From: a virus
DNA: 23,824 nt
Direction: 5' to 3' (one strand)
IMG/VR virus record: IMGVR_UViG_3300009376_000086
Location: 1 to 23,824 of that record
The notes under the pieces were generated by a model. That model did not search any database and was not told the DNA's origin. It saw only the letters and a list, made by a program, of their open reading frames with translations. Below are positions 10,088 to 23,824 of this stretch, piece after piece. Position numbers and translations under genes: made by a program. The first letter of the stretch is position 1, and every line of letters starts with the position of its first letter.

Positions 10088-11986
10088 ATGAAAAATATAT
10101 ACTTATTTGAATTAAGTGATGTATTTGCTAATCAAGTTTATTTACCTTATTCTAGTGGAGTAGTATGGTCTTATGTAAAAAATAATCCTTATATTAAAGA
10201 TCACTATAAATTAAAAGATTGGTTTTATGCTCGTGATGAAGCTAAAAATATTATTAATAAAATAGAAAATCCTCATATATTATTATTTAGTTGTTTTATG
10301 TGGAATTGGAATTTAAATTGTGAAATAGCTAAAACTATAAAACAAAATTATCCTTTTTGTAAAATAATGTTTGGAGGACAACATCAACCACTTGCTGATA
10401 GAGCTAAAGGTTTTTTTAATGAACATCCTTATGTAGATGTTTTAATACATAGTGAAGGTGAAGAAACAGTAAAAGAATTATTATATGAAAAACCTTATGA
10501 AGAAATAAAAGGTATAACTTATAATGATTCTAATAAAGAAATAAGAAATCCTCCACGTGTAAGATTGGAAGGTATACATGATAATCCTAGTCCTTTTCTT
10601 GATGGTAGTTTTGATTGGATAATAGAAAAAAATAAAAAAGATAAAAATTATAATTTTCACGCAACTGTAGAGTCAGCTAGAGGTTGTCCATTTAGTTGTG
10701 CTTTTTGTGAAATTGGAGATAAATATTATCAAAAATTAAAAACAAGTTACGATAAAACTAAAAAAGAAATTGACTGGATTGCTAAAAATAAAATAGAATA
10801 TGTAACAGATGCTAATTCAAATTTTGGTATTTTATTTGATCAAGATATGGATTTAGCAAAATATGTAATTAAAGTAAAAGAAGAAACCAATTTTCCTCAA
10901 GCATTTAGAGTTACATGGGCAAAAGGTCAAGCGGATAAAGTTTTACAAATAGCAAAACTTTTTGAAAAACATGATATACAAAAAGGTATGACTATTGCTT
11001 TACAATCTTTTAATCCCGATGTTTTAAAAGCAGTAAAAAGAAAAAACGTACATAGTGGTAAATTAAAAGAATTTATAGATATGTATGAAAAAGAAGGAAT
11101 AGGAAGTTATGTAGAATTAATTTGGGGATTACCAGAAGAAACTATTGATTCTTTTATTGATGGCGTAACTTATATAATGGAAGAAGGTTATCATACTTAT
11201 CTAGATGTACATTTAATGATGTTATTACCTAATGCACCTATTAATGAACCTGGATATAAAGATCAATTTGGAATTAAATCAGTAAATGCTCAACCTAGAT
11301 TTTCACATAGATCCAATCCAGAAAAATTAGTAGATGATTTAGTTTCTTTTGTTACAGCAACAAGAAAATGTAATCATCAAGATTGGATCAAAGGTCATCA
11401 ATTTAGATGGCTAGTTATCTTTGGTCATTATTTAGGTCCATTACAATTTATATCTAGAGCAATGAAAAAAATATATAATATATCTTATAAAGATTTTTAT
11501 ACGGATCTTTTATCTTTTTGCGAAAAAAATCCAGGCACATATATAGGAAAAGAATATTTAACTATTAGAAAAAATTTAACTAAAATATTAAAGAATAAAA
11601 GACATTGGGGAGATGTTATCCCTGGTGTAGGAAATATTAATTGGGAAGTAGATGAAGCAACATGTATTCGATTAGTTAAAAATAAAGAAATATTTTATAA
11701 AGAGATGTCAACTTATTTAATAAATAAATATAATACAGATGAACACGTATTAAGAGATATAATTAATTATCAAAAAGCTCGTTTACATCATCCTTTTAAA
11801 CAATATCCAATATATAAATATTTTAATTTTAATATACATGATGTTATAGAAAATAATAAATCATTTCAAGAAGAAAAAAATATAAAAACTTTTGTAGGTA
11901 AAAATTATGATAATCTTTATGAATGGGCTAAAAATACTTTATGGTTTGGTAGAAGAATAGCAAGATATAAGACTAAAGTTATTTAA
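10088..11986 (+). CDS. Radical SAM enzyme with N-terminal cobalamin-binding-like domain
   Basis: 632 residues. Residues 1-150 have the order of B12-binding domains fused to radical SAM enzymes (IYLFELSDVFANQVYLPYSSG..., ILLFSCFMWNWN, KIMFGGQHQP, DVLIHSEGEETVKELL), but without the classical DxHxxG cobalamin ligand motif. The radical SAM motif CPFSCAFC supplies C200, C204 and C207 for the 4Fe-4S cluster that cleaves S-adenosylmethionine. QSFNPDVLKAVKRKN and VELIWGLPEET are typical later barrel segments. About 200 C-terminal residues carry no motif I know. Members of this superfamily methylate or rearrange unreactive carbons in lipids, pigments, peptides and antibiotics; the substrate here is unknown. 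No Shine-Dalgarno is seen before the ATG. Its end overlaps the opposing helicase gene by 8 bases. Confidence 0.85.
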   Translation: MKNIYLFELSDVFANQVYLPYSSGVVWSYVKNNPYIKDHYKLKDWFYARDEAKNIINKIENPHILLFSCFMWNWNLNCEIAKTIKQNYPFCKIMFGGQHQPLADRAKGFFNEHPYVDVLIHSEGEETVKELLYEKPYEEIKGITYNDSNKEIRNPPRVRLEGIHDNPSPFLDGSFDWIIEKNKKDKNYNFHATVESARGCPFSCAFCEIGDKYYQKLKTSYDKTKKEIDWIAKNKIEYVTDANSNFGILFDQDMDLAKYVIKVKEETNFPQAFRVTWAKGQADKVLQIAKLFEKHDIQKGMTIALQSFNPDVLKAVKRKNVHSGKLKEFIDMYEKEGIGSYVELIWGLPEETIDSFIDGVTYIMEEGYHTYLDVHLMMLLPNAPINEPGYKDQFGIKSVNAQPRFSHRSNPEKLVDDLVSFVTATRKCNHQDWIKGHQFRWLVIFGHYLGPLQFISRAMKKIYNISYKDFYTDLLSFCEKNPGTYIGKEYLTIRKNLTKILKNKRHWGDVIPGVGNINWEVDEATCIRLVKNKEIFYKEMSTYLINKYNTDEHVLRDIINYQKARLHHPFKQYPIYKYFNFNIHDVIENNKSFQEEKNIKTFVGKNYDNLYEWAKNTLWFGRRIARYKTKVI

Positions 11987-13542: not shown

Positions 13543-13872
13543 ATGGCTAAAGTTTACATAGTACAAGAAAATCCAAATGTAAATGTTATTGGTGCTGGTC
13601 GTTTTGGAGATTTAATTCCATTACTACCACCAGGTCGACAAATTACTCTTTCATCAGCCCCAGTTGTAAAATTATTAAATGCTAAATTAAAAAATTTTAA
13701 TGATAAAGATTTTTTACTTGCAATGGGTGATCCAGTTGCTATTGCAATTGCTTCAATGGTAGCCTCGGATATTAATAATGGAAAAGTAAATATGTTAAAA
13801 TGGGATAGAGAAAATCAATGTTACTATAATGTTCCTATTGATCTTTATCAGAAAGGAGAAAATAATGAGTAA
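13543..13872 (+). CDS. Conserved small phage protein, first gene of the rightward early operon
   Basis: 109 residues, no recognised domain. It begins KVYIVQENPNVNVIGAGRFGDLIPLLPPGRQ, has a small hydrophobic helix in GDPVAIAIASMVASDINNGKV (about 65-85), and ends with a polar tail. No transmembrane segment, no catalytic motif. It has a strong ribosome site (AGGAGA, 7-8 bases before the ATG) and comes first after the candidate early promoter, so it is probably made early and in quantity. Its stop overlaps the next ATG by 8 bases (ATGAGTAA). The pattern looks like a family I have met as hypothetical proteins in marine podoviruses beside replication genes. Function unknown. Confidence 0.7.
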   Translation: MAKVYIVQENPNVNVIGAGRFGDLIPLLPPGRQITLSSAPVVKLLNAKLKNFNDKDFLLAMGDPVAIAIASMVASDINNGKVNMLKWDRENQCYYNVPIDLYQKGENNE

Positions 13873-14449
13873 AGAAAAGTGGATTTTTGATTCAGTCGAA
13901 AAACACAAGAAGAAAGAAAGTTTACCAAAAGGTGGATTAGAAATAGTTACAGCTATTGGAAATAAACTTATAAAAAAGAAGAAAAATCTTATGAAAGAAG
14001 AAGAAAAACTTAAAGAGTTAAAAGCTGAAATTCGTGAGATTGAAGAAAAAGAATTACCTGATGCTATGGCATCATGTAATAATATGACTAGATTTGATTT
14101 AGCCGATGGCAGTCAAATTTCAGTTAAAGATGATTTATTTTGTTCTATACCAGAAGATAAAAGAGCAGGTGCTCTTAAATGGTTAGAAGAAAATGGACAC
14201 AGCGAACTAATTAAACATGATGTTAAAGTTAGTTTTGCAAAAGGCGAGTATGATGAAGCTGATAAACTAATTAAGGTATTGAATAAAAATTTTAAAAATA
14301 TACCTTATGACGAAAAATCTTCAGTTCATGCTGGCACATTAAAAGCTTTTGCTAAAGAAAGATATAGTCTTGGTGAAACATTACCAGAAGAATATTTTTC
14401 TGTCTACGAAGCCAGTATAGCAAAAGTTAAACTCGGAAAGGAGAAATAA
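13865..14449 (+). CDS. Coiled-coil protein of the phage replication module
   Basis: 194 residues. The ATG at 13865 is preferred over one at 13829 in the same frame because it has GAAAGGAGAA just upstream and overlaps the previous stop by 8 bases. Residues 30-70 are a Lys/Glu-rich coiled coil (NKLIKKKKNLMKEEEKLKEL...). Then comes a conserved-looking part: FDLADGSQISVKDDLFCSIPED, ALKWLEENGHSELIKHDVKVSF, and a C-terminal HAGTLKAFAKERYSLGETLP. This order is familiar from proteins encoded next to single-strand-binding or recombination proteins in many phages, but they have no agreed function. Its tight linkage to the candidate SSB immediately downstream suggests they work together on DNA. No catalytic motif was seen. 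Confidence 0.65.
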   Translation: MSKEKWIFDSVEKHKKKESLPKGGLEIVTAIGNKLIKKKKNLMKEEEKLKELKAEIREIEEKELPDAMASCNNMTRFDLADGSQISVKDDLFCSIPEDKRAGALKWLEENGHSELIKHDVKVSFAKGEYDEADKLIKVLNKNFKNIPYDEKSSVHAGTLKAFAKERYSLGETLPEEYFSVYEASIAKVKLGKEK

Positions 14450-14450
14450 T

Positions 14451-15233
14451 ATGGCGGATAAACAAGTAGAAATCAAATCAAAAAATGAAATCGCAACAGG
14501 CGATATTTCACCTGATTTGATTATTAAATCTGCTGGTCGTGGTTTAGAAAATGTCACTAATGATGATATTACTATTCCTAGATTAGCAATAATACAAGCC
14601 GGCTCACCTCAAAGAAAAAAGAAAGATGAAAAATATCTTGAAGGTGCGGAAGAAGGTAATATCTTTAATACAGTTACTAATCAATTATATAGTGATTCGA
14701 TTACAGTTATACCTTGTGGATACAGAAAGTCCTATGTGGAATGGGTACCTAGAGAAAAAGGTGGAGGTCTTGTAGCAGTACATGATATGAAACCTGATGG
14801 AACTAAAACTGATCCAAAAACTAGAAAGTCAATGTTAGGCGAAAATCAAATTGTTGATACAGCTGAACATTTCGTTTTAGTTAAAAAAGATAAATCGTTT
14901 GAACCTGCGGTTTTAACGATGACATCTAGTAATCTTTCTGTTTCAAGAAAGTGGAATACACTTCTTAAAATGAAAAAGATGAATGTAAAAGGTCAGATGG
15001 TAGAACCACCTTCTTTTCTTTTTATGTTTAAATTATCAACTGTAAATGCTGAAAATGATTTAGGTAGTTGGTATAAATATAAAATAGAAGAAATAGGTAC
15101 AGTATCAAGTCAAGATATATTTAAACAGGCAGAAAGTCTTTCAGATTCAATATCTGAAGGTAAAGTAAAAGCTTCAGACCCTGTTGATACTGATACATCT
15201 TCAGAAGAAAAAGATACTAAAACACCATTTTAG
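14451..15233 (+). CDS. Candidate single-stranded DNA-binding protein
   Basis: 260 residues. The body is beta-rich with aromatic and basic residues (DDITIPRLAIIQAG, ITVIPCGYRKSYVEWVPREKGG, FEPAVLTMTSSNLSVSRKW, PPSFLFMFKLSTV), as expected of an OB-fold. The last 18 residues are acidic and end in Pro-Phe (DTSSEEKDTKTPF). That C-terminal arrangement is the partner-docking tail of bacterial SSB and the analogous acidic Phe-ended tail of T7 gp2.5. It lies just before the primase and in an operon with exonuclease and helicase. A strong ribosome site (GGAAAGGAG, 14435-14443) suits an abundant protein. I infer SSB from tail, composition and context; a recombination mediator is the main alternative. 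Confidence 0.6.
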   Translation: MADKQVEIKSKNEIATGDISPDLIIKSAGRGLENVTNDDITIPRLAIIQAGSPQRKKKDEKYLEGAEEGNIFNTVTNQLYSDSITVIPCGYRKSYVEWVPREKGGGLVAVHDMKPDGTKTDPKTRKSMLGENQIVDTAEHFVLVKKDKSFEPAVLTMTSSNLSVSRKWNTLLKMKKMNVKGQMVEPPSFLFMFKLSTVNAENDLGSWYKYKIEEIGTVSSQDIFKQAESLSDSISEGKVKASDPVDTDTSSEEKDTKTPF

Positions 15234-15235
15234 TT

Positions 15236-16741
15236 ATGCTTTATGAAGATTTTTTCAAGGTCTTTCCAGGCCTAACCAGAGCTTATGGCCAATTTTTCAT
15301 AACAGAAAGAAAAGGTCCTAAACTTGATGGCTATGGAAAGACCATAAGGGAAAATTATGTCGCTGAACTTTGGAAACAACACCTAGATGGTAAAACTGGT
15401 CTAGGTGTTATTCCAATTAATAAAGATAATAAATGTAAATGGGGTTGTCTAGATGTAGATGATTATTCTGTTGATATAGAAAAAATTAGTAAACAGTTTG
15501 TAAAAAAGAATTTAATAGTATGTAGATCAAAATCAGGAGGAGCACATATTTTTATTTTTACTAAAAATTTTGTATCTGCTTCTTCAATGATTAATAAATT
15601 AAAAGAAATTGTAAAAGCATTTGGCTTTGTTAAATATGATTTAAGACCACAGCAAACTAAATTAATTGATGATAATGATTGTGGTAGTTGGTTAAATATG
15701 CCATACTTTGGTGGAGAATCCACTGATAGATATGCTCTTTATGATGGACAAGTATTAACACCTGAACACTTTATTAAATGGATAGAAAAATTTTCATTAG
15801 ATTCACTTGAATCTCTGGATCTAACTTTTATTAAAAAACTTAATAAATCCAACGAAATTTTACCAGGCGGTCCACCTTGCCTCCAAGATTTACTTTCTAA
15901 AGGAGCATTAGGAGAAGGTAGTAGAAATAATGGTCTTTTTAATATTGGAGTTTATTTAAGGAAAAGATTTCCAGAAGATTGGCAAGATAAATTAGAAGAA
16001 TATAATGATGAATACATTGATCCTCCACTTAAACCTAGAGAATTTACAACAGTATTACAAAGTTTAGATAAAAAAACTTATAATTATAAATGTAAAGATT
16101 CACCAATTAATTCAGTTTGTAATAAAACTAAATGTATTACATGTGAATATGGTATTAATGATGATGGTACAATGCCTACTTTAAATAGTATTACTAAAAT
16201 ACTAACTAATCCACCACAATATTTTTTAACTTTAAGTGAAAAAAAAATTGGTCCATTATCAAGTAAACAAATTTATAATTTTTTAGATTTTAAACAAGTT
16301 GTATTTGAAAATTTAGATATGCTTCTTCCTAAAATAAATGATAAGTTATGGACTGAAACTGTAAATGATTTAATGTCTAGAGTTATTGCTGTTGAAGCAC
16401 CTAAAGATAGTAGTAATGAAGGTAGATTATTTGATTTATTAGAAAGATTTTGTACTGGTTCCACTTCTTCTACAGAGTCAGAAGATTTATTAAGAGGTAA
16501 AGCTATAATACAAGATAATATAACAGAATTTAGAATAAATGATTTTATGGAATTTTTAGATAGACATAGATTTAAAGAATTTAAATTACATGAAATTACT
16601 GCATATTTAAAAAATTTAGGTGCTACTCATAGCGGAAAAAAGATAAAAGGAAAATTTACGAATACTTGGTCAATTCCAAGTTTTCAAGTACAAACTGAAG
16701 AATTTAAACAACCAAATATAAATAAGGAGGCATATGAATAA
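15236..16741 (+). CDS. Archaeo-eukaryotic-type primase (AEP superfamily)
   Basis: 501 residues. The catalytic AEP signature is present: the metal-binding acids in CLDVDDYS (D73, D75), then SKSGGAHIFIFT (100-109) with the nucleotide-binding His H104, then SWLNMPYFGG. A helical PriCT-like domain follows (GSRNNGLFNIGVYLRKRF, about 229-245), and a Cys cluster C286, C295, C300, C303 that may hold zinc or an iron-sulphur centre. The last 190 residues lack motifs; no helicase P-loop is present, so this is a stand-alone primase. It would prime, or possibly prime and extend, phage DNA. It follows the candidate SSB by two bases with no clear ribosome site (probably re-initiation) and overlaps the next gene by 8. 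Confidence 0.8.
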   Translation: MLYEDFFKVFPGLTRAYGQFFITERKGPKLDGYGKTIRENYVAELWKQHLDGKTGLGVIPINKDNKCKWGCLDVDDYSVDIEKISKQFVKKNLIVCRSKSGGAHIFIFTKNFVSASSMINKLKEIVKAFGFVKYDLRPQQTKLIDDNDCGSWLNMPYFGGESTDRYALYDGQVLTPEHFIKWIEKFSLDSLESLDLTFIKKLNKSNEILPGGPPCLQDLLSKGALGEGSRNNGLFNIGVYLRKRFPEDWQDKLEEYNDEYIDPPLKPREFTTVLQSLDKKTYNYKCKDSPINSVCNKTKCITCEYGINDDGTMPTLNSITKILTNPPQYFLTLSEKKIGPLSSKQIYNFLDFKQVVFENLDMLLPKINDKLWTETVNDLMSRVIAVEAPKDSSNEGRLFDLLERFCTGSTSSTESEDLLRGKAIIQDNITEFRINDFMEFLDRHRFKEFKLHEITAYLKNLGATHSGKKIKGKFTNTWSIPSFQVQTEEFKQPNINKEAYE

Positions 16742-16922: not shown

Positions 16923-17734
16923 TGTATATATTTTTTGATACTGAAACTAATGGATTATGGAGAAGGGATTTACCTTCTAATCATAAAGATCAACCTAGAC
17001 TTGTAAGTATGGCTTTTCAAGTATGTGATGATAAAGAAAAAATTATAGCTCAATATTCAAGTCGAATAGAGCCAAAGTCAAGAGATGTACCTGATTTTAT
17101 TATTCCTAAAGAAGTTGAAGATATTCATGGAATATCTACTAAAGAAGCACAATATACTGGAATAGCTTTACAATATCCTTTAGCTATGATGACTTACTTT
17201 ATAAGTAAGTGTCATACAATGGTTGCTCATAATTTAGCTTTTGATTTACAAATATTAGAACGAGAATTAACACTTTTAAATTTTATTTATAAACAGCCTC
17301 AAAAATTACATTGTACTATGATGATGGCTAAAGATCAATTAAAATTAAAAGCTGATTATAATGATTATAAATTTCCTAAATTAGAAGAATGTTTTAAACA
17401 TTTTTTTCATAGAGGAGTTCATAATTATCACGATGCTTTATTAGATGTTCAATTATGTAGAGAATTATATTTTCATATGAAAAGAATAGGTATTAAAGAA
17501 GTTACTCATCAAGCTATTCCTAAAGAATTATTAAATAGAATAGAAGGAGATAAATATCAAAACTTAATTAATTTTTTAAATAATATTAATAAAAATAAAT
17601 TAAATGATTGGGAAAATAGTTTTTGTCAATCAGTAATTGAAAAAACAAATAAAAATGGTGATAAACATATTTTATTATCAGATAAACAACGTGCTACTTT
17701 AAGAAAAATATATAATAAACATAATGGAAAGTAA
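16922..17734 (+). CDS. DnaQ-like DEDDh 3'-5' exonuclease
   Basis: 270 residues. The exonuclease domain (1-190) carries all five catalytic residues: D6 and E8 (FFDTETNG), D108 (AHNLAFDLQIL), and H170 with D175 (NYHDALLDVQLC), which makes it the DEDDh class. Removal of nucleotides from 3' ends with two metal ions, as in proofreading subunits, is expected. After a low-complexity Asn/Lys linker (about 215-227), residues 228-270 (DWENSFCQSV..., LLSDKQRATLRKIY) form a small helical domain that recurs in phage replication proteins and may mediate contacts. No polymerase is fused, so it may proofread for a polymerase encoded outside the window or degrade host DNA. Ribosome site AAAGGAG at 16911-16917. 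Confidence 0.88.
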   Translation: MYIFFDTETNGLWRRDLPSNHKDQPRLVSMAFQVCDDKEKIIAQYSSRIEPKSRDVPDFIIPKEVEDIHGISTKEAQYTGIALQYPLAMMTYFISKCHTMVAHNLAFDLQILERELTLLNFIYKQPQKLHCTMMMAKDQLKLKADYNDYKFPKLEECFKHFFHRGVHNYHDALLDVQLCRELYFHMKRIGIKEVTHQAIPKELLNRIEGDKYQNLINFLNNINKNKLNDWENSFCQSVIEKTNKNGDKHILLSDKQRATLRKIYNKHNGK

Positions 17735-19235
17735 GACAATTAAAATTTTTGGTAGTCCTGGTACAGGAAAAACTACAACTCTTTTAAAACTTTTAGAAGA
17801 AAAAATTGCAGAAGGATATAAACCTGAAAAAATTGGATTTTTTTCTTTTACTCGTAGAGCAATTAGAGAAGCAAGAAGTAGGGTTATTAAAAAATTTAAT
17901 CTTTCAGAAGATGATTTAGAATATTTTAGGACTATCCATAGTTTATGTTATCGAACTTTAAATATAAATAGTGGTCAAGTTTTTAAAGGAGAACGTGTAA
18001 AAGAATTTAGTGAAATTGCTAGAATAGAAATGTCAGGTGTATCTGAAGAAGATACATCAGGATTAGCTGTAGGAAATAAAAGAGGTGATTTACTTTTATT
18101 CTGTGATGAAGTTTCAAGATCAAGTGAAAGAGATTTAAAAGAAGTATGGAAAGAATTAGAATGTGAACATACTTGGGAAGAACAAGAATACTTTTCTAAA
18201 GTATTAATTAATTTTAAGAAATCTAAAAATCTTTTAGATTTTACAGATATGTTAGATATTTTTATAAAAGAAGAAACTATTCCACAATTAGATATTATTT
18301 TTGTAGATGAAGCTCAAGATTTAACAACTAAACAATGGAAAGTAATAGAAAAATTAAATGAATATTGTAAATTTAGATATATAGCAGGTGATGATGATCA
18401 AGCTATCTATCGTTGGGCAGGAGCTGATGTTAAAAGATTTTTAAATATTAAAGGTAATATTGAAGTATTACCTATAAGTTATAGATTACCAAAAACTATT
18501 CATAAATTAGCTTGTGATATTTCTCATAAAATTTCTTTAAGACAAGTAAAAAATTGGACTTCAAGAAAGGATCAAGGATCAATAACTGATATTTATTCTA
18601 TTGAAGATGTAGATATGTCCGAAGGAGAATGGCTTATATTAGCAAGATCAGGTTATCAATTATTTAAAGCTGAAGCATATTGTAAAAGAATGGGTTGGTT
18701 TTATGAAAAAGGTCATCACGAATTTAAAACTAATAAATTTGTTATTGCTATTAGATCATGGATTAAATTAAATAGAGGTGAAACTATTTCTTTTGATGAA
18801 TTAAAAAAATTATATCAGTGTATTAAAAGTAAAACAGGAATTACTAGAGGTTTTAAAAAATTAGAAGGTATTGATCAAAATAAAGAATTTTCTCTTCAAG
18901 ATTTACGAGAAAATGTAGGATTAATTGCTAAAGGAGAATGGCAAGAAGTTATTTTTGGTCTTGATCCCGAAGATATTTTAATGTTTGAATCTTTAATTAA
19001 ATCGGGAGATATTTTTAAGAATAAAGCACGAATAAGATTATCAACTATTCATGGAATCAAAGGTGGAGAAAGTGATAATGTAGTAGTGATATCGGATATT
19101 TCTTATAAAACTTGGAGAAAATTTAATGTTGAACCTGATGATGAACATAGAGTTTTTTATGTAGCTGTAACACGAGCTAGAAAAAATTTGTTCTTGTTGC
19201 ATCCGGAAACGAAGTATAGTTACGAATTACGATGA
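17724..19235 (+). CDS. UvrD/Rep-like superfamily 1 DNA helicase
   Basis: 503 residues. Superfamily 1A motifs: Walker A GSPGTGKTT (10-18), motif Ia FFSFTRRAI (39-47), Walker B VDEAQD (194-199), motif III GDDDQAIYRWAGAD (222-235), motif IV ISYRLP (251-256), motif V STIHGIKGGESDNVVVI and motif VI FYVAVTRARKNLFL near the end. It is shorter than UvrD (about 720 aa), with reduced insertion domains, nearer to the compact phage helicases. It should unwind DNA 3'-5' using ATP during replication or recombination. It overlaps the exonuclease gene by 11 bases and the methyltransferase gene by 4 (ATGA), so it belongs to one operon. Together with the SNF2 protein, the phage encodes at least two helicases. 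Confidence 0.9.
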   Translation: MESKTIKIFGSPGTGKTTTLLKLLEEKIAEGYKPEKIGFFSFTRRAIREARSRVIKKFNLSEDDLEYFRTIHSLCYRTLNINSGQVFKGERVKEFSEIARIEMSGVSEEDTSGLAVGNKRGDLLLFCDEVSRSSERDLKEVWKELECEHTWEEQEYFSKVLINFKKSKNLLDFTDMLDIFIKEETIPQLDIIFVDEAQDLTTKQWKVIEKLNEYCKFRYIAGDDDQAIYRWAGADVKRFLNIKGNIEVLPISYRLPKTIHKLACDISHKISLRQVKNWTSRKDQGSITDIYSIEDVDMSEGEWLILARSGYQLFKAEAYCKRMGWFYEKGHHEFKTNKFVIAIRSWIKLNRGETISFDELKKLYQCIKSKTGITRGFKKLEGIDQNKEFSLQDLRENVGLIAKGEWQEVIFGLDPEDILMFESLIKSGDIFKNKARIRLSTIHGIKGGESDNVVVISDISYKTWRKFNVEPDDEHRVFYVAVTRARKNLFLLHPETKYSYELR

Positions 19236-20290
19236 AAGCATTAGGAACTTATATATTTGCTGGTGGATTTACTTTAGGAGTAAGTAAACATTTTGATGTT
19301 GAAGCTCATTTCGAAATGAAACCAGGTTTATATAAAAAAACTTTTAAAGCTAATTTTCCAAATATTCCTGTATATGAAGGTGAAGAAGAATGGCCTCGAA
19401 AAAAATTTAAAAATAAGATTGATTTTGTTTATTGTAATCCCCCATGTGCTCCTTGGTCTAATTTAGGAGGAGCACAGAAAGGAGCAGGAGCATGGAGAGA
19501 TGATCCTAGAATTGCATGTTGGAGAAATAGTTTTAATCTTTTAAAAGAATTAAATCCGACAGCTTTAGCTATTGAATCAGTTCCTCGAATTTACTCTAAA
19601 AATGGAGGATATCCCATGATTATGGAATTAACTAAAGAAGCAAATAAATTAGGTTATCAAGTTACTCATTTATTAATTGATGGTGGCTTTACTGGTTTAA
19701 ATCATAGTCGTAAAAGATTTTTTTTTATAGCAACGAAATATGGATTGAATCCACATATTTTAAATTTTCAACCATTACCAACAGCGGGAGAAGTTTTAAG
19801 TGAATTCAAAAAAGAACACGGATCCGATATAGGACATTTAATGAAGTTGGGAAAAAATGAAAAACCTTATCTTAAACATTGTAAACAAGGAGAAAGTTTA
19901 AGAGTAACATGGGAAAGATATAATCCACCAGAAACTTGGGTACGAGGAGGAATGAGAGGTGGAGTAAAAGGAAGACCTCAATTTATGAAATGGAGATTAA
20001 AAGATAATGCACATATACCAGTTATAGCTGGAGGATTTTATATACATCCTAATGAAGATAGACTATTTGGTCATAAAGAATTAGCTTATATGGCAGGTTT
20101 TCCAGTAGATTATAAATGGGAAGGACCAAGTTCTAGTATAGGATCACAAATCGCACGTGGAGTAATGCCACCTGTCGCTGAATATGTAGCAAGAATAATA
20201 AAAAATAGTATTAAAGAAAAGAATAAAAAAGAAGAAGAATTACAAATTATAGATTTTAGAAAGGCACCAACCCAAGAAAGTTTATTATGA
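19232..20290 (+). CDS. C5-cytosine DNA methyltransferase
   Basis: 352 residues. Motifs of the C5 family are in order: I (YIFAGGFTLGV, 7-17), IV with the catalytic Cys (CNPPCAPWS, C72), VI (LAIESVPRI, E115; normally ENV), VIII (GLNHSRKRFFFIA, 156-167), a variable target-recognition region (about 170-280), IX (LAYMAGFPVDYKW) and X (GSQIARGVMPPVAEYVA). It should transfer methyl from SAM to carbon 5 of cytosine in DNA. The usual Gln after the catalytic Cys is Ala and the Asn of ENV is Ser, so this is a divergent member. No endonuclease gene is adjacent, making it an orphan phage enzyme for protection from host restriction or a first step of further modification. Start overlaps the helicase stop (ATGA). 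Confidence 0.85.
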   Translation: MKALGTYIFAGGFTLGVSKHFDVEAHFEMKPGLYKKTFKANFPNIPVYEGEEEWPRKKFKNKIDFVYCNPPCAPWSNLGGAQKGAGAWRDDPRIACWRNSFNLLKELNPTALAIESVPRIYSKNGGYPMIMELTKEANKLGYQVTHLLIDGGFTGLNHSRKRFFFIATKYGLNPHILNFQPLPTAGEVLSEFKKEHGSDIGHLMKLGKNEKPYLKHCKQGESLRVTWERYNPPETWVRGGMRGGVKGRPQFMKWRLKDNAHIPVIAGGFYIHPNEDRLFGHKELAYMAGFPVDYKWEGPSSSIGSQIARGVMPPVAEYVARIIKNSIKEKNKKEEELQIIDFRKAPTQESLL

Positions 20291-20481
20291 GAAGTTTTAT
20301 AGAAAGTTTTATAGATGTGGGATCAGGATTTATTTTAGCTATATTAATACAGCTTTATATTTTTCCATTTTTTGGATTATATCCAACTATTATGGATAGT
20401 ATTGGAATTGCTTTAATATTTACAGGAGTATCTATTACAAGATCATGGCTATGGAGAATGGCATTTAAAAAATATGAATAA
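20287..20481 (+). CDS. DUF7220-like small membrane protein
   Basis: 64 residues with two membrane helices, about 15-30 (GFILAILIQLYIFPFFG) and 36-52 (MDSIGIALIFTGVSITR), and a basic C-terminus (RSWLWRMAFKKYE). The arrangement 'F...P.FGL...I..IFT..SI.RS...R..F' matches a widespread phage family I know as DUF7220. Function unknown; inner-membrane location expected. ATG overlaps the methyltransferase stop. It is the first of three successive genes for envelope proteins. Confidence 0.7.
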   Translation: MRSFIESFIDVGSGFILAILIQLYIFPFFGLYPTIMDSIGIALIFTGVSITRSWLWRMAFKKYE

Positions 20482-20487
20482 TAAAAG

Positions 20488-20994
20488 ATGATAAAAATAA
20501 TTGTAACATTTTTATTTATTTCAGGAATTCTTACTTTAGGAAGATTAATTCCTCATCCGCCAAATTTTACACCAATTTTAGCTACAGCAATTTATACTCC
20601 ATATATCATTAATGATAAATGGATAGCAGTGTTGATTCCACTTTCTGCTATGTTTATTGCAGATATTATTATTGGCTTTCATCCGTATATGTTATGGGTG
20701 TATGGAGCAATAGGTTTATCAACTTTAATTAGTAATTGGTCAATGCGTTTTAATAAAAAATATATTCAATTAGGAGTAATGGCAATCTTATCTTCTATAT
20801 TATTTTTTATAATAACAAATTTTGCAGTGTGGATTATATGGGATTATTATCCAACAACGATTGATGGTTTAATAATATGTTATATAAAAGCAATTCCCTT
20901 TTTTCAAAATACATTATTAGGAACTATAATATATACAGCTCTTATAACTATAACAATACAGAAAGGAAGGAAATATGCGAACAATTATTTTTAG
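20488..20994 (+). CDS. DUF6580-like integral membrane protein
   Basis: 168 residues, four to six membrane helices covering most of the chain (about 2-20, 46-64, 68-86, 94-121, 133-160). The early segment GRLIPHPPNFTPILATAIYTPYI and the later SAMFIADIIIGFHPYMLWVYGAIG fit the bacterial DUF6580 family, whose layout resembles substrate-binding components of ECF vitamin transporters. If the resemblance holds, the phage may supply a small-molecule uptake component, or alter the host membrane during infection. No energising ATPase or coupling subunit gene is nearby. Six bases after the previous gene; its end overlaps the lipoprotein gene by 20 bases. Assignment from recalled sequence pattern. Confidence 0.65.
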   Translation: MIKIIVTFLFISGILTLGRLIPHPPNFTPILATAIYTPYIINDKWIAVLIPLSAMFIADIIIGFHPYMLWVYGAIGLSTLISNWSMRFNKKYIQLGVMAILSSILFFIITNFAVWIIWDYYPTTIDGLIICYIKAIPFFQNTLLGTIIYTALITITIQKGRKYANNYF

Positions 20995-21160
20995 TATAAT
21001 TTTAATAATTGGATTAGTAGGATGTTCAAATCATACATTTAACCCAGATACTACAACATTAAAATATGGTAATACTGGTCAAGATGGTGATAGTGTAAAT
21101 GGCGATTATAATTCAGAAAATTTCACTATTACACAAACATTTAAATGGTCACAAAATTAA
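20975..21160 (+). CDS. Small phage lipoprotein
   Basis: 61 residues with a clear lipoprotein signal: basic start (MRT), hydrophobic core IIFSIILIIG, lipobox LVGC (14-17) with C17 as the lipidated residue and Ser at +2, which favours the outer membrane. The mature part is only 45 residues, polar, rich in Thr, Asp, Asn and Gly, ending in a Phe-Trp strand (ITQTFKWSQN). A strong ribosome site (GGAAGG) lies just ahead of the ATG, and it overlaps the previous gene by 20 bases. Small phage lipoproteins made with early genes are often superinfection-exclusion factors. An outer-membrane spanin is an alternative, but the lysis genes are 11 kb away. Confidence 0.75.
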   Translation: MRTIIFSIILIIGLVGCSNHTFNPDTTTLKYGNTGQDGDSVNGDYNSENFTITQTFKWSQN

Positions 21161-21166
21161 ATAATT

Positions 21167-21613
21167 ATGAAAAATTCAGATATTTTTAATTTACACGAAG
21201 ATTTATTAGGAGATATAAATAGATTTCATAATAAATTTGGTTTTGAAAAGAATGAAAAAGTAGGAATACCAGATAATCCAGAATTAGTTAATTTTAGAAC
21301 TTCTTTTTTAATGGAAGAATTAGCTGAATATACTCAAGCTATAACTAAAAAAGATGATGCTGCAGCATTAGATGCTCTTATTGATATAGTTTATATAGCT
21401 TTAGGTACTGCTTGGTTATTTAATTTACCTTTTGAAAAAGCTTGGAAAGAAGTACAAACAGCTAATATGAAAAAAGTAAGAGCTAAAAGTAAATCAAAAA
21501 AACGAGGAACAGCATTTGATGTAATTAAACCTAAAGGTTGGCAAGCTCCTAATATAGATCAAATTGTTGAGGAAGAGAAAGAACAAAATGAAAATATTAA
21601 TAACAGGCTTTAA
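21167..21613 (+). CDS. MazG-like nucleoside triphosphate pyrophosphohydrolase
   Basis: 148 residues of the all-alpha NTP-PPase superfamily. The metal-binding motif is seen in FLMEELAEYTQA (E50, E51, E54) and ALDALIDIVYIALG (D69, D73), followed by the conserved Asn in VQTANMKKV (N100). A basic tract (KSKSKKRG) and GWQAPNI follow, the usual end of phage MazG-like proteins. It should hydrolyse nucleoside or deoxynucleoside triphosphates to the monophosphate and pyrophosphate. In phages this has been proposed to tune (p)ppGpp or clear unwanted dNTPs. Next to kinase and TS-family genes, a role in shaping the nucleotide pool is likely. No ribosome site is obvious before the ATG. Confidence 0.85.
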   Translation: MKNSDIFNLHEDLLGDINRFHNKFGFEKNEKVGIPDNPELVNFRTSFLMEELAEYTQAITKKDDAAALDALIDIVYIALGTAWLFNLPFEKAWKEVQTANMKKVRAKSKSKKRGTAFDVIKPKGWQAPNIDQIVEEEKEQNENINNRL

Positions 21614-22622
21614 TGCATTAGCTGTAGGTACAGCAAGAAGTACATTAAATATATCTACATCAGCTAGAATATTACCTAGAGTTTTAAAAGATTTAGGACA
21701 CGATGTTACTCAAAAAGCAATCGTTCCAGGAGAAGATGTTTCTCAATATGATAAAGTTTTTGTATTTGTATTTGGTCCTAATAGTCTATCAGCACGTTTT
21801 TGGTATGGTGCAGCATATACTTTAATAAAAAGACCTGATGCAATAGTATCAATAGATGATTGGCAAACTAAAGATTCAGTAAGTGGTTTTGGAACTTTTA
21901 GTAGAGGTCATTGGAGAATATGGAAAAAATTAAGTAAAGCAGGAAATCCAGTAGGAAAAGTTAATTGGGATGAGGCTCAAGTTTATAAAAAAGAAATAGA
22001 AGATTTTGTAGATACATTCGCTTTTGAAGAATGGCCTTATAAACTTTTAATTCCAGCTTATGATGGCGGTAATTATGAAACTTTAGGAATGAAAGCTAAA
22101 GAAATTATAAATTGGGATCCTTCAATTTATTGTGATTTACATTTAAATCATCCTGATTTAATAAATTTATTTTCAAGTCAGTCTCATGAAAGAAAAAAAG
22201 AATGGGCTTGTGCTAGTTTAGTAAGTAAACAAAACTGGTTAAAACAACAATATTTTAATTGGCCTGTGAAAACTTTTGGAAATATAAAAGAAGGACAGAC
22301 AAGATTAAAAGAACATGAATTATTCGCAGAGTATTGTAAAATATGGGGAATAATAAGTCCACCGCATTATCATACTTTACAAGGAAGTGGTTGGTGGAGA
22401 GTAAGATATAAAATGGCATTAGATGCAGGATGTATTATCTATGGTCATCCTGAAGAAACTAAAGTATTAGGTTTTTATCATAATCCTGAAAATTTAGAAA
22501 AATGTAGTAATGACGAATTAATTAAAGTATTTAATAGTCAAGCTGAAATTTTAAAAAATAAATTTTGGTCAAAAGAAAGAACGAAAGAATTTTTTAAATG
22601 TTTATTAGAGGAAAAATCTTAA
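21588..22622 (+). CDS. GT-B-like glycosyltransferase
   Basis: 344 residues from the ATG at 21588; an upstream TTG at 21564 is less likely. The N-terminus is a Rossmann start (MKILITGFNA), with the first-domain pattern 'LGHDV...YDKVFVFVFGPNSLSAR' common to GT-B enzymes. The C-terminal part has the donor-site layout: WWRVRYKMALDAGCIIYGHPEETKVLG spans residues 269-295, followed by YHNPENLEKC and a closing helix. The middle (about 90-230) is divergent. I associate this domain pattern with uncharacterised glycosyltransferase-like proteins of phages, some near DNA-modification genes. Acceptor could be DNA, a nucleotide, or an envelope sugar. It overlaps the MazG gene by 26 bases and the kinase gene by 25, so it is embedded in the nucleotide operon. 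Confidence 0.6.
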   Translation: MKILITGFNALAVGTARSTLNISTSARILPRVLKDLGHDVTQKAIVPGEDVSQYDKVFVFVFGPNSLSARFWYGAAYTLIKRPDAIVSIDDWQTKDSVSGFGTFSRGHWRIWKKLSKAGNPVGKVNWDEAQVYKKEIEDFVDTFAFEEWPYKLLIPAYDGGNYETLGMKAKEIINWDPSIYCDLHLNHPDLINLFSSQSHERKKEWACASLVSKQNWLKQQYFNWPVKTFGNIKEGQTRLKEHELFAEYCKIWGIISPPHYHTLQGSGWWRVRYKMALDAGCIIYGHPEETKVLGFYHNPENLEKCSNDELIKVFNSQAEILKNKFWSKERTKEFFKCLLEEKS

Positions 22623-23173
22623 TTTTTGATGGACCAGATGGTGTAGGTAAAACTACATTAATTAATTATATAAAAAAGAAATATAATAACTCTTATTATA
22701 TGCATTTAAGAGTTCATAAAAATATGAAATTGTGGCATACAGCTAGTGCTAGATATGCTATTAGAAAAAAATTAGAAGGAAAATTAGTTTTATTAGATAG
22801 ACATTGGCCAAGTGAACAATGCTATGCTTATATTTATAGAAATGGACCTAGTTATAATCCTAGGTTTTTATATAATAGATTAAAAGATCAAAAAACTTTT
22901 TATGTATGGTGTATTCCTGAAGATATTGAAAGAGTAAAAGAAAATCATAGAATTAATAGAGAATTAAGACATGAAGAATATCATGATATTGATAAAGTAG
23001 TAGATTATTATTACTATCATTGGTTTGGTAAACCTGATCGAAATAATTTTTTATCCACGCTATCGCCTCTGCGTAACAGAAAAGATTTTATGAGATATGA
23101 TATGTTCAAAGATGGATACAAATTAGATGAATTTACAAATAAAATTATGAAAAATTATGCGATACACTTATAA
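22598..23173 (+). CDS. P-loop nucleotide kinase, thymidylate-kinase-like
   Basis: 191 residues. Walker A GPDGVGKTT (12-20) in the context ILIFDGPDGVGKTTL closely follows the dTMP kinase pattern. The DR motif LLDRHWPSEQ (65-74, D67-R68) matches the base/phosphate-binding DRY/DRH of nucleoside monophosphate kinases. A lid with basic residues (VKENHRINRELRHEEY, about 113-128) follows. It should phosphorylate a deoxynucleoside monophosphate such as dTMP, or a modified monophosphate. 5-hydroxymethyl-dU DNA kinases of hypermodifying phages are also small P-loop kinases, so this cannot be excluded. It overlaps the glycosyltransferase gene by 25 bases; only a weak ribosome site is seen, suggesting coupled translation. 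Confidence 0.75.
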   Translation: MFIRGKILIFDGPDGVGKTTLINYIKKKYNNSYYMHLRVHKNMKLWHTASARYAIRKKLEGKLVLLDRHWPSEQCYAYIYRNGPSYNPRFLYNRLKDQKTFYVWCIPEDIERVKENHRINRELRHEEYHDIDKVVDYYYYHWFGKPDRNNFLSTLSPLRNRKDFMRYDMFKDGYKLDEFTNKIMKNYAIHL

Positions 23174-23345
23174 AATTAAAACTAAAGATAAAGAAGAAAT
23201 GATAGAGGCAATGTCTTTTAAAAAAATGTTACAATCTTTGGTTCTTAAATTTCCTAAAATGAATGTTTTATGTATGTATAAAAATAAAAAAGGAAATAAT
23301 TTAGCAAAATGGATAGATACTAATAAAATTAAAGTGAAATATTAA
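23157..23345 (+). CDS. Small basic hypothetical protein
   Basis: 62 residues, strongly basic, no recognised family: MRYTYKIKTKDKEEMIEAMS, then FKKMLQSLVLKFPKM, then two likely strands ending KWIDTNKIKVKY. The alternation of strand-helix-strand suggests a small compact fold. It starts inside the kinase gene (17-base overlap) and stops directly before the ATG of the TS-family gene, with no gap, so it is plausible as a coupled gene despite the absence of a clear ribosome site. Function unknown. Confidence 0.5.
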   Translation: MRYTYKIKTKDKEEMIEAMSFKKMLQSLVLKFPKMNVLCMYKNKKGNNLAKWIDTNKIKVKY

Positions 23346-23824
23346 ATGAAAGAAACTAATATCAGATATAAAAAAATGTTATGGGATATTTATAAACTTC
23401 CTGAGTTTATGTGTAAACCTAGAGGATTAAATATAAAAGAAAAAATTAATCACTCTTTTAAAATAGGTATGGAAGACCCTATTATAACGATACCTGAAAG
23501 AAAATTATCTTATAGTTTTATGTTTGGTGAAGCAGCATGGATGTTGAGTGGCAGAAATGATGTTGCAAGTGTATCTAAATATGTTGATGGAGTTAAAAGA
23601 TTTAGTGATGATGGTATAACTTTTTTTGGAGCTTATGGTCCTAAAATTATTACTCAAACATCTTATATAATTAATACTTTAATAAAAGACAATGATAGTA
23701 GACAAGCTGTTATAAATATATGGAGAGAGAATCCTAGATCAAGTAAAGATATTCCTTGTACTTTATCTTTACAATTTTTATTAAGAGAAGCAAGTGATGA
23801 GTTATGGTTACATACAATTGCTAC
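23346..23824 (+). CDS. Thymidylate synthase / dCMP-dUMP hydroxymethylase family (3' end outside window)
   Basis: The first 159 residues of a TS-superfamily protein. Matches: FMFGEAAWMLSGRNDVASVS (58-77, the EL-W-L-G-NDVA helix), FSDDGITFFGAYGPKI (86-101, the GxYG segment), DSRQAVINIW (117-126, phosphate-binding R119), and the catalytic nucleophile in IPCTLSLQFLL (C138). TS enzymes normally have Cys-His; here it is Cys-Thr, as in T4 dCMP hydroxymethylase. The second Arg of the SRR pair is Gln. The enzyme would use methylene-tetrahydrofolate to add either CH3 (making dTMP) or CH2OH (making a hydroxymethyl pyrimidine). The residue that separates dUMP from dCMP use (Asn versus Asp) is beyond the window. 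It begins one base after the preceding stop codon. Confidence 0.82.
   Translation, partial: MKETNIRYKKMLWDIYKLPEFMCKPRGLNIKEKINHSFKIGMEDPIITIPERKLSYSFMFGEAAWMLSGRNDVASVSKYVDGVKRFSDDGITFFGAYGPKIITQTSYIINTLIKDNDSRQAVINIWRENPRSSKDIPCTLSLQFLLREASDELWLHTIA

Follow-up and report, generated by a model that had tools for sequence, protein, structure and literature searches.

A candidate T4-like pathway for glycosylated hydroxymethylcytosine in a non-T4 phage lineage

Introduction

The glucosyl-hydroxymethylcytosine (hmC) pathway of phage T4 comprises gp42, gp56, gp1, cd and the alpha- and beta-glucosyltransferases. Here we describe a gene cassette in IMG/VR virus record IMGVR_UViG_3300009376_000086 (the whole record, a linear fragment of 23.8 kb, is called the window below). 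The cassette resembles the T4 pathway in having a thymidylate synthase (TS) homologue with hydroxymethylase residues of the deoxycytidine monophosphate (dCMP) type, a nucleoside triphosphate (NTP) pyrophosphohydrolase, a nucleoside monophosphate (NMP) kinase, a dCMP deaminase, a phage polymerase and a glycosyltransferase (GT) with a predicted fold like that of T4 beta-glucosyltransferase (BGT). Unlike the T4 genes, it forms a compact operon in a non-T4 phage, its GT lies outside the Pfam BGT family, its pool enzymes are of the MazG and thymidylate kinase (TMPK) types, and it adds a nucleotide-sugar dehydrogenase, NadE and a homologue of C5-cytosine methyltransferases (MTases) that lacks the ENV motif. 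Enzyme classes, the cytosine-type TS residues, the BGT-like fold, and the operon and its conservation were read by sequence or structure prediction. Together they suggest, with a probability that we put at about 0.8, that a non-T4 phage lineage has a glycosyl-hmC pathway resembling that of T4, in which the GT is of a separate family, the sugar is possibly unusual and the MTase partner is unexplained.

Other described systems share parts of this set. The arabinosyl-deoxycytidine (arabinosyl-dC) pathway of Mosigvirus RB69/NP has a TS-family base maker, a TMPK-like kinase nearby, dedicated sugar-nucleotide genes and a DNA GT; however, the RB69 candidate GTs are not detectably related to that of the window, the TS homologue is of another subtype, and no C5-MTase was seen in the RB69 region. 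Bacillus phage SP-15, with phosphoglucuronated dihydroxypentyluracil, likewise encodes a UDP-glucose dehydrogenase and glycosyltransferases and has a uronate in its DNA, but its base is thymine-derived, its hydroxymethylase is of the dUMP type and its glucuronolactone is phosphodiester-linked. Carbamoyl-hmC contigs of sewage phages (MetaGPA) contain the set of TS homologue with Asp177, PRA-PH and dCMP deaminase, whereas they decorate hmC by a carbamoyltransferase and not a GT. Finally, the Manatee Spring podophage ct3Et533 (MW202510) has a MazG-TMPK-hydroxymethylase-dCMP deaminase-PolA block and Pam3-like replication genes, but lacks a GT and a C5-MTase and has a class I S-adenosylmethionine (SAM) methyltransferase in their place.

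Results

From position 17724 to the end of the window, every gene is on the + strand, and neighbouring genes overlap or abut. The series runs from a UvrD helicase through the C5-MTase, DUF7220, DUF6580, a small putative lipoprotein, MazG/PRA-PH, the GT, a thymidylate-kinase-like P-loop kinase and a 62-aa open reading frame (ORF) to the 5′ half of the TS homologue. An initial annotation, made from the letters of the window, had placed five part types (MTase, MazG-like enzyme, GT, kinase and TS homologue) in one operon here, and Pfam and PHROG matches, together with the shared strand and close gene ends, bear this out. A near-identical 52-kb sister contig (L010/L050/L108-L110), with 97-98% amino acid identity to the window in the GT, the MTase and the TS homologue, extends the operon: a full TS homologue (277 aa, L050:6001-6834) is followed by a small Cys-rich ORF, a dCMP deaminase (PF00383), a family A DNA polymerase (PF00476), a nucleotide-sugar dehydrogenase, NadE and a 134-aa ORF, the last without a Pfam match and labelled VRR after a MW202510 homologue annotated VRR-NUC. 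The order MTase-MazG-GT-kinase-TS-deaminase-PolA-dehydrogenase is retained in 24-30 related contigs. All evaluable relatives preserve the part from MTase through MazG, GT and kinase to TS (MTase 30/30, TS homologue 29/29); the dehydrogenase is present in 24/24, and 21/24 have NadE. Since gene order is kept down to ~59-79% protein identity under purifying selection (dN/dS was used solely as evidence of such selection), we conclude that the arrangement is not due to chance. In the clade, the hydroxymethylase and kinase evolve fastest, and the MTase is one of the slowest-evolving proteins.

Membrane and lipoprotein genes separate the MTase from MazG in the window. The initial annotation was right about their presence but took them to weaken the case for a single cassette, and this does not hold: MTase, MazG and GT are immediate neighbours in 27/30 evaluable relatives, which rules the intervening genes out as core parts. 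They represent a local insertion, which the window has and its nearest kin share in part.

At positions 146/147/177 (E. coli TS numbering), the TS homologue reads Cys-Thr...Asp. In a residue comparison, T4 gp42 likewise has C-T...D, whereas ThyA has C-H...N and the dUMP enzyme of SPO1 has C-N...N; the Cys-Thr pair, already picked out in the initial annotation, is thus real and diagnostic. The catalytic Cys is invariant across 92 TS-family sequences, PF00303 matches the full-length homologue at 4.1e-15, and the closest solved relative in the PDB is the CMP 5-hydroxymethylase MilA (5.4e-27). Asp177 switches TS to dCMP, and MetaGPA ties Asp177 to modified-cytosine contigs, on which PF00303, PF01503 and PF00383 co-occur (PMC8670742). 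Because the window's enzyme has the C-T...D of gp42 and not the C-H...N of ThyA, the modified base is predicted to be cytosine and the TS homologue to be of the dCMP hydroxymethylase type. Thr147 and Asp177 rule out a plain ThyA, which needs His147 and Asn177, and a dUMP hydroxymethylase. Oxidation of 5-methylcytosine (5mC) by a Tet/JBP enzyme was also rejected for the window phage, as no Tet_JBP dioxygenase was found in the sister contig or the clade relatives, contigs that may be incomplete.

The GT has no Pfam or NCBIfam match above noise, and its profile found no match in the PDB by sequence. An AlphaFold2 model built with 21 relatives in the alignment (pLDDT 83, pTM 0.82) agrees with the GT-B-like fold proposed in the initial annotation. 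Its two top PDB matches in Foldseek are both T4 DNA beta-glucosyltransferase (1qkj, E 5.6e-6; 1bgt, E 1.7e-5; prob 1.00, TM ~0.57), with T4 alpha-glucosyltransferase ranking lower. Aligning 17 diverse GT members with seven beta-glucosyltransferases in hhalign gave a probability of 93.4% (E 2.5e-7, 292 columns), compared with 0.2% for an unrelated-family control. Three residues that are invariant in T4 BGT, Asp60, Asp100 (the catalytic base) and Arg269, have counterparts in Asp55, Asp90 and Arg273 of the GT. With a shallow alignment, hhalign comparisons with RB69 ORF003c and ORF050c, a single T4 BGT and a Gordonia GT4 gave nothing convincing; it took the deeper alignments to bring out the match. 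The GT probably works like BGT, and this unannotated family is likely to be a DNA glycosyltransferase. We found no paper on the family or the cassette. The initial annotation had also considered that close homologues of the GT might act on lipopolysaccharide; this finds no support, since DNA glucosyltransferases are the best solved fold match and a weak scan of bacterial genomes, with two peptide patterns only, gave no match.

Relatives sharing ~22-29% identity with the GT come from T4-like phages of Aeromonas, Erwinia, Morganella and Providencia, from Gordonia phages, and from one actinobacterial and one Kyanoviridae phage; the cultured carriers of this GT include Gordonia phage Forza/BlueNGold and Aeromonas phage phiAS4. 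Partners were sought in 18 records, of which MW202510 lacks the GT, leaving 17 GT-bearing records, five of them from the window clade. A TS homologue is encoded by 16/17, and all those checked have the dCMP-type Asp, the extra ThyA copies of the T4-like phages excepted. Phage C48C1 alone lacks a TS homologue; there, Tet_JBP lies directly upstream of the GT, with UDP-galactopyranose mutase (UGM) downstream. The element common to GT-bearing phages is a maker of hydroxymethyl- (or hydroxy-) pyrimidine, and this company is our main argument that the GT would act on DNA. The neighbouring sugar genes differ by lineage: UGM, arabinose-5-P isomerase with an RB69-like NTP-transferase, or, in the window clade, the UDP-glucose-dehydrogenase-like enzyme.

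Two of these settings merit separate mention. In C48C1 (OQ984149, L004:6586-10033), the Tet_JBP dioxygenase, GT and UGM genes are consecutive, and no C5-MTase was found in the genome; the trio could be a base-J-like route in which thymine oxidation precedes galactofuranosylation. Gordonia and other actinobacterial phages (L008, L009, L125-L147) have two GT-family members close together, which might build a disaccharide on the base. As for phages with a dCMP hydroxymethylase and no GT (L054, L056, L057, L062, L070, L071, L073, L082, L084, L089 and MW202510), a conserved class I SAM methyltransferase of ~280-290 aa occupies the GT/MTase position, mostly just 5′ of MazG, and possibly provides another decoration of hmC.

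The MTase keeps the catalytic Cys72 (PPC), Glu115 and Arg160/Arg162, with C72, R160 and R162 invariant (PC of motif IV, RxR of motif VIII), and has ESV in place of ENV in motif VI. GT-linked MTases have ESV in the window clade and L083, ETT in L087/L088, ESV/ECV in Gordonia and actinobacterial phages and ETG in ctIqW946, and all these lineages retain the catalytic Cys, as well as the Glu of motif VI; M.HaeIII and three ordinary phage MTases whose motif is readable have an intact ENV. The ordinary MTases cluster separately in a small tree (support 0.993), whose deeper nodes are not resolved. When the MTase was taken as the starting point, a search retrieved 23 actinobacterial-group contigs; in each of those with sufficient upstream DNA the MTase comes after GT-family genes, mostly with MazG and in some cases with UGM. 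The initial annotation had called a methylase together with a TS homologue unusual. An MTase is indeed odd beside an hmC maker, yet the ENV-less C5-MTase regularly accompanies the GT and belongs to the cassette.

Because C5-MTases in vitro can add formaldehyde to cytosine, exchange the hydroxyl of hmC for thiols or strip the hydroxymethyl group (PMC7176277, PMC11347137), a role for the MTase on hmC is chemically possible. A doubtful proposal is that the MTase does not methylate cytosine but acts on hmC in DNA, by Cys addition at C6 with the hydroxymethyl lost or replaced, and thereby either swaps in a different group or primes hmC. The sugar added by the GT would then be a uronate or uronamide, and the whole would be an undescribed cytosine hypermodification.

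The dehydrogenase scores 222.8 bits against TIGR03026 (nucleotide sugar dehydrogenase subfamily; cutoff 189.8), and its nearest specific model is AglM-type UDP-glucose dehydrogenase (165.6 bits, cutoff 670). Its active-site motif is intact in 31/31 copies. SP-15 encodes a UDP-glucose dehydrogenase and carries glucuronolactone in its DNA (PMC5977210), and by analogy a uronate-type sugar is plausible for the window phage. It is our leading guess, with glucuronosyl-hmC as an example, because the co-directional enzyme probably supplies or alters the sugar nucleotide. NadE may provide NAD; as the reaction it catalyses turns a carboxylate into a carboxamide, a uronamide sugar is an outside possibility. 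NadE-like and nucleotide-sugar dehydrogenase genes also adjoin in a glycan-like cluster of the 642-kb phage LR756502 (L151:7204-9215), and the two may work together, perhaps in turning uronate into uronamide.

These assignments suggest the following pathway. Before replication, the MazG-like enzyme would convert dCTP to dCMP, the TS homologue, with the specificity read from its residues, would hydroxymethylate dCMP, and the TMPK-like kinase would yield hm-dCDP; dCMP deaminase would remove residual dCMP as dUMP, and the phage PolA would synthesize hmC DNA. After replication, the BGT-like GT would join to hmC in DNA a sugar that the dehydrogenase probably helps to provide, as fold and neighbours suggest, and the ENV-less MTase homologue may act in a further step. 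The likely use is to shield the DNA from restriction and Cas nucleases. The modified, possibly glycosylated pyrimidine of the initial annotation is thereby supported, by the GT fold and the hydroxymethyl-base makers nearby, and sharpened to cytosine by the TS residues.

Coordinates of the cassette genes are collected in Table 1. Elsewhere in the window, positions 13543-16741 hold Pam3-like gp32-gp33-gp34 genes and a TOTE-type AEP primase, also found in MW202510 and many other hydroxymethylase phages. Positions 10088-11986 encode a methylcobalamin-dependent radical SAM protein, KedN5-like (NF033712 1.8e-72, below its cutoff), that is also present in the sister contig.

Table 1 Cassette genes and inserted genes in the window
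Feature	Position	Strand	Evidence and remarks
C5-cytosine-MTase homologue, 352 aa	19232..20290	+	PF00145 2.6e-28; best PDB match M.HaeIII 1.4e-10; motif comparison
DUF7220 small membrane protein	20287..20481	+	PF23858 1.9e-17; local insertion; found only in window and L012/L041
DUF6580 membrane protein	20488..20994	+	PF20221 8.1e-41; local insertion; absent from relatives
Putative lipoprotein, 61 aa	20975..21160	+	Local insertion; function assigned by inspection only
MazG/PRA-PH-like NTP pyrophosphohydrolase	21167..21613	+	PF01503 6.5e-13; phrog_671 8e-29; fixed place in cassette
GT-B-like glycosyltransferase, 344 aa	21588..22622	+	phrog_14998 3.7e-23; AlphaFold2 and Foldseek; hhalign to T4 BGT family
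Thymidylate-kinase-like P-loop NMP kinase	22598..23173	+	PF02223 5.8e-9; phrog_761 9.8e-11; immediately 5′ of TS homologue in most related loci
62-aa ORF without assigned function	23157..23345	+	Present in nearest kin only
Predicted dCMP-hydroxymethylase-type TS homologue, cut at 159 aa by contig end	23346..23824	+	PF00303; C-T...D residues

Discussion

Several points weigh against a glycosyl-hmC pathway. It is predicted here from genes and modelled structure, and the window contig is a fragment. In eight records, with E values of up to 10 allowed, the GT did not match PF09198 (Pfam T4-Gluco-transf), so the GT family appears separate from BGT; with a structural match to T4 BGT of only TM 0.57, the GT resembles BGT yet looks like a remote relative. 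The dehydrogenase's nearest outside homologue (55.6%) adjoins NadE in the surface-glycan-like cluster of the 642-kb phage, which has none of the cassette genes, and for this reason the enzyme's DNA role is uncertain. D-type TS homologues also comprise 5-hydroxy-dCMP synthases of the RB69 type (PMC13390438) and could include dCMP methylases, the residues not being a rigorous separator. We nevertheless consider it improbable that the TS homologue makes 5-hydroxy-dCMP, with the sugar attached straight to C5 as in Mosigvirus arabinosyl-dC. Enzymes of both kinds are TS relatives (PMC13390438), and a GT-family member lies within the arabinose cluster of Morganella Rgz1, whose enzyme is of the RB69 type; however, the RB69/Rgz1 enzymes lack the ND..G block (RSQNCAVVMQLD), whereas the window's enzyme has it, as do TS, T4 gp42 and MilA (RSNDAWLGTPYD).

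It is very unlikely that there is no hypermodified base at all, the TS homologue, MTase and kinase serving nucleotide supply and ordinary 5mC protection while the GT and dehydrogenase modify host surface glycans. The retained catalytic residues of the MTase, the glycan-like setting of the dehydrogenase-NadE pair elsewhere and the presence of nucleotide-sugar dehydrogenases in other phages would fit such a scheme, but the dCMP-type TS residues, the BGT-like GT, its position next to Tet/JBP in C48C1 and the GT-MazG-MTase cassettes of unrelated phages do not. Within a glycosyl-hmC pathway, the GT might instead put plain glucose on hmC, as in T4, with the dehydrogenase serving some unrelated role. 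This is a serious possibility, if short of even odds: UDP-glucose is the donor of the GT's closest solved relatives, and several phages with the GT lack both the dehydrogenase and UGM, whereas the dehydrogenase is in the same operon in 24/24 evaluable contigs with its active site intact, and elsewhere the GT family is paired with other sugar-altering enzymes.

If a glycosyl-hmC pathway does operate here, T4-style cytosine glycosylation would occur in small uncultured phages and, via the same GT family, would extend to phages of Gordonia, to other actinobacterial phages, to Kyanoviridae and to T4-like Aeromonas/Erwinia phages, and exchangeable neighbouring genes would determine which sugar (galactofuranose, arabinose or uronate) is used. 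It would also pose a sharp question, in that phages making hmC retain a C5-MTase homologue with one changed catalytic motif. The cassette would provide new enzymes for hmC labelling, and such bases would matter for how phages evade restriction and Cas nucleases.

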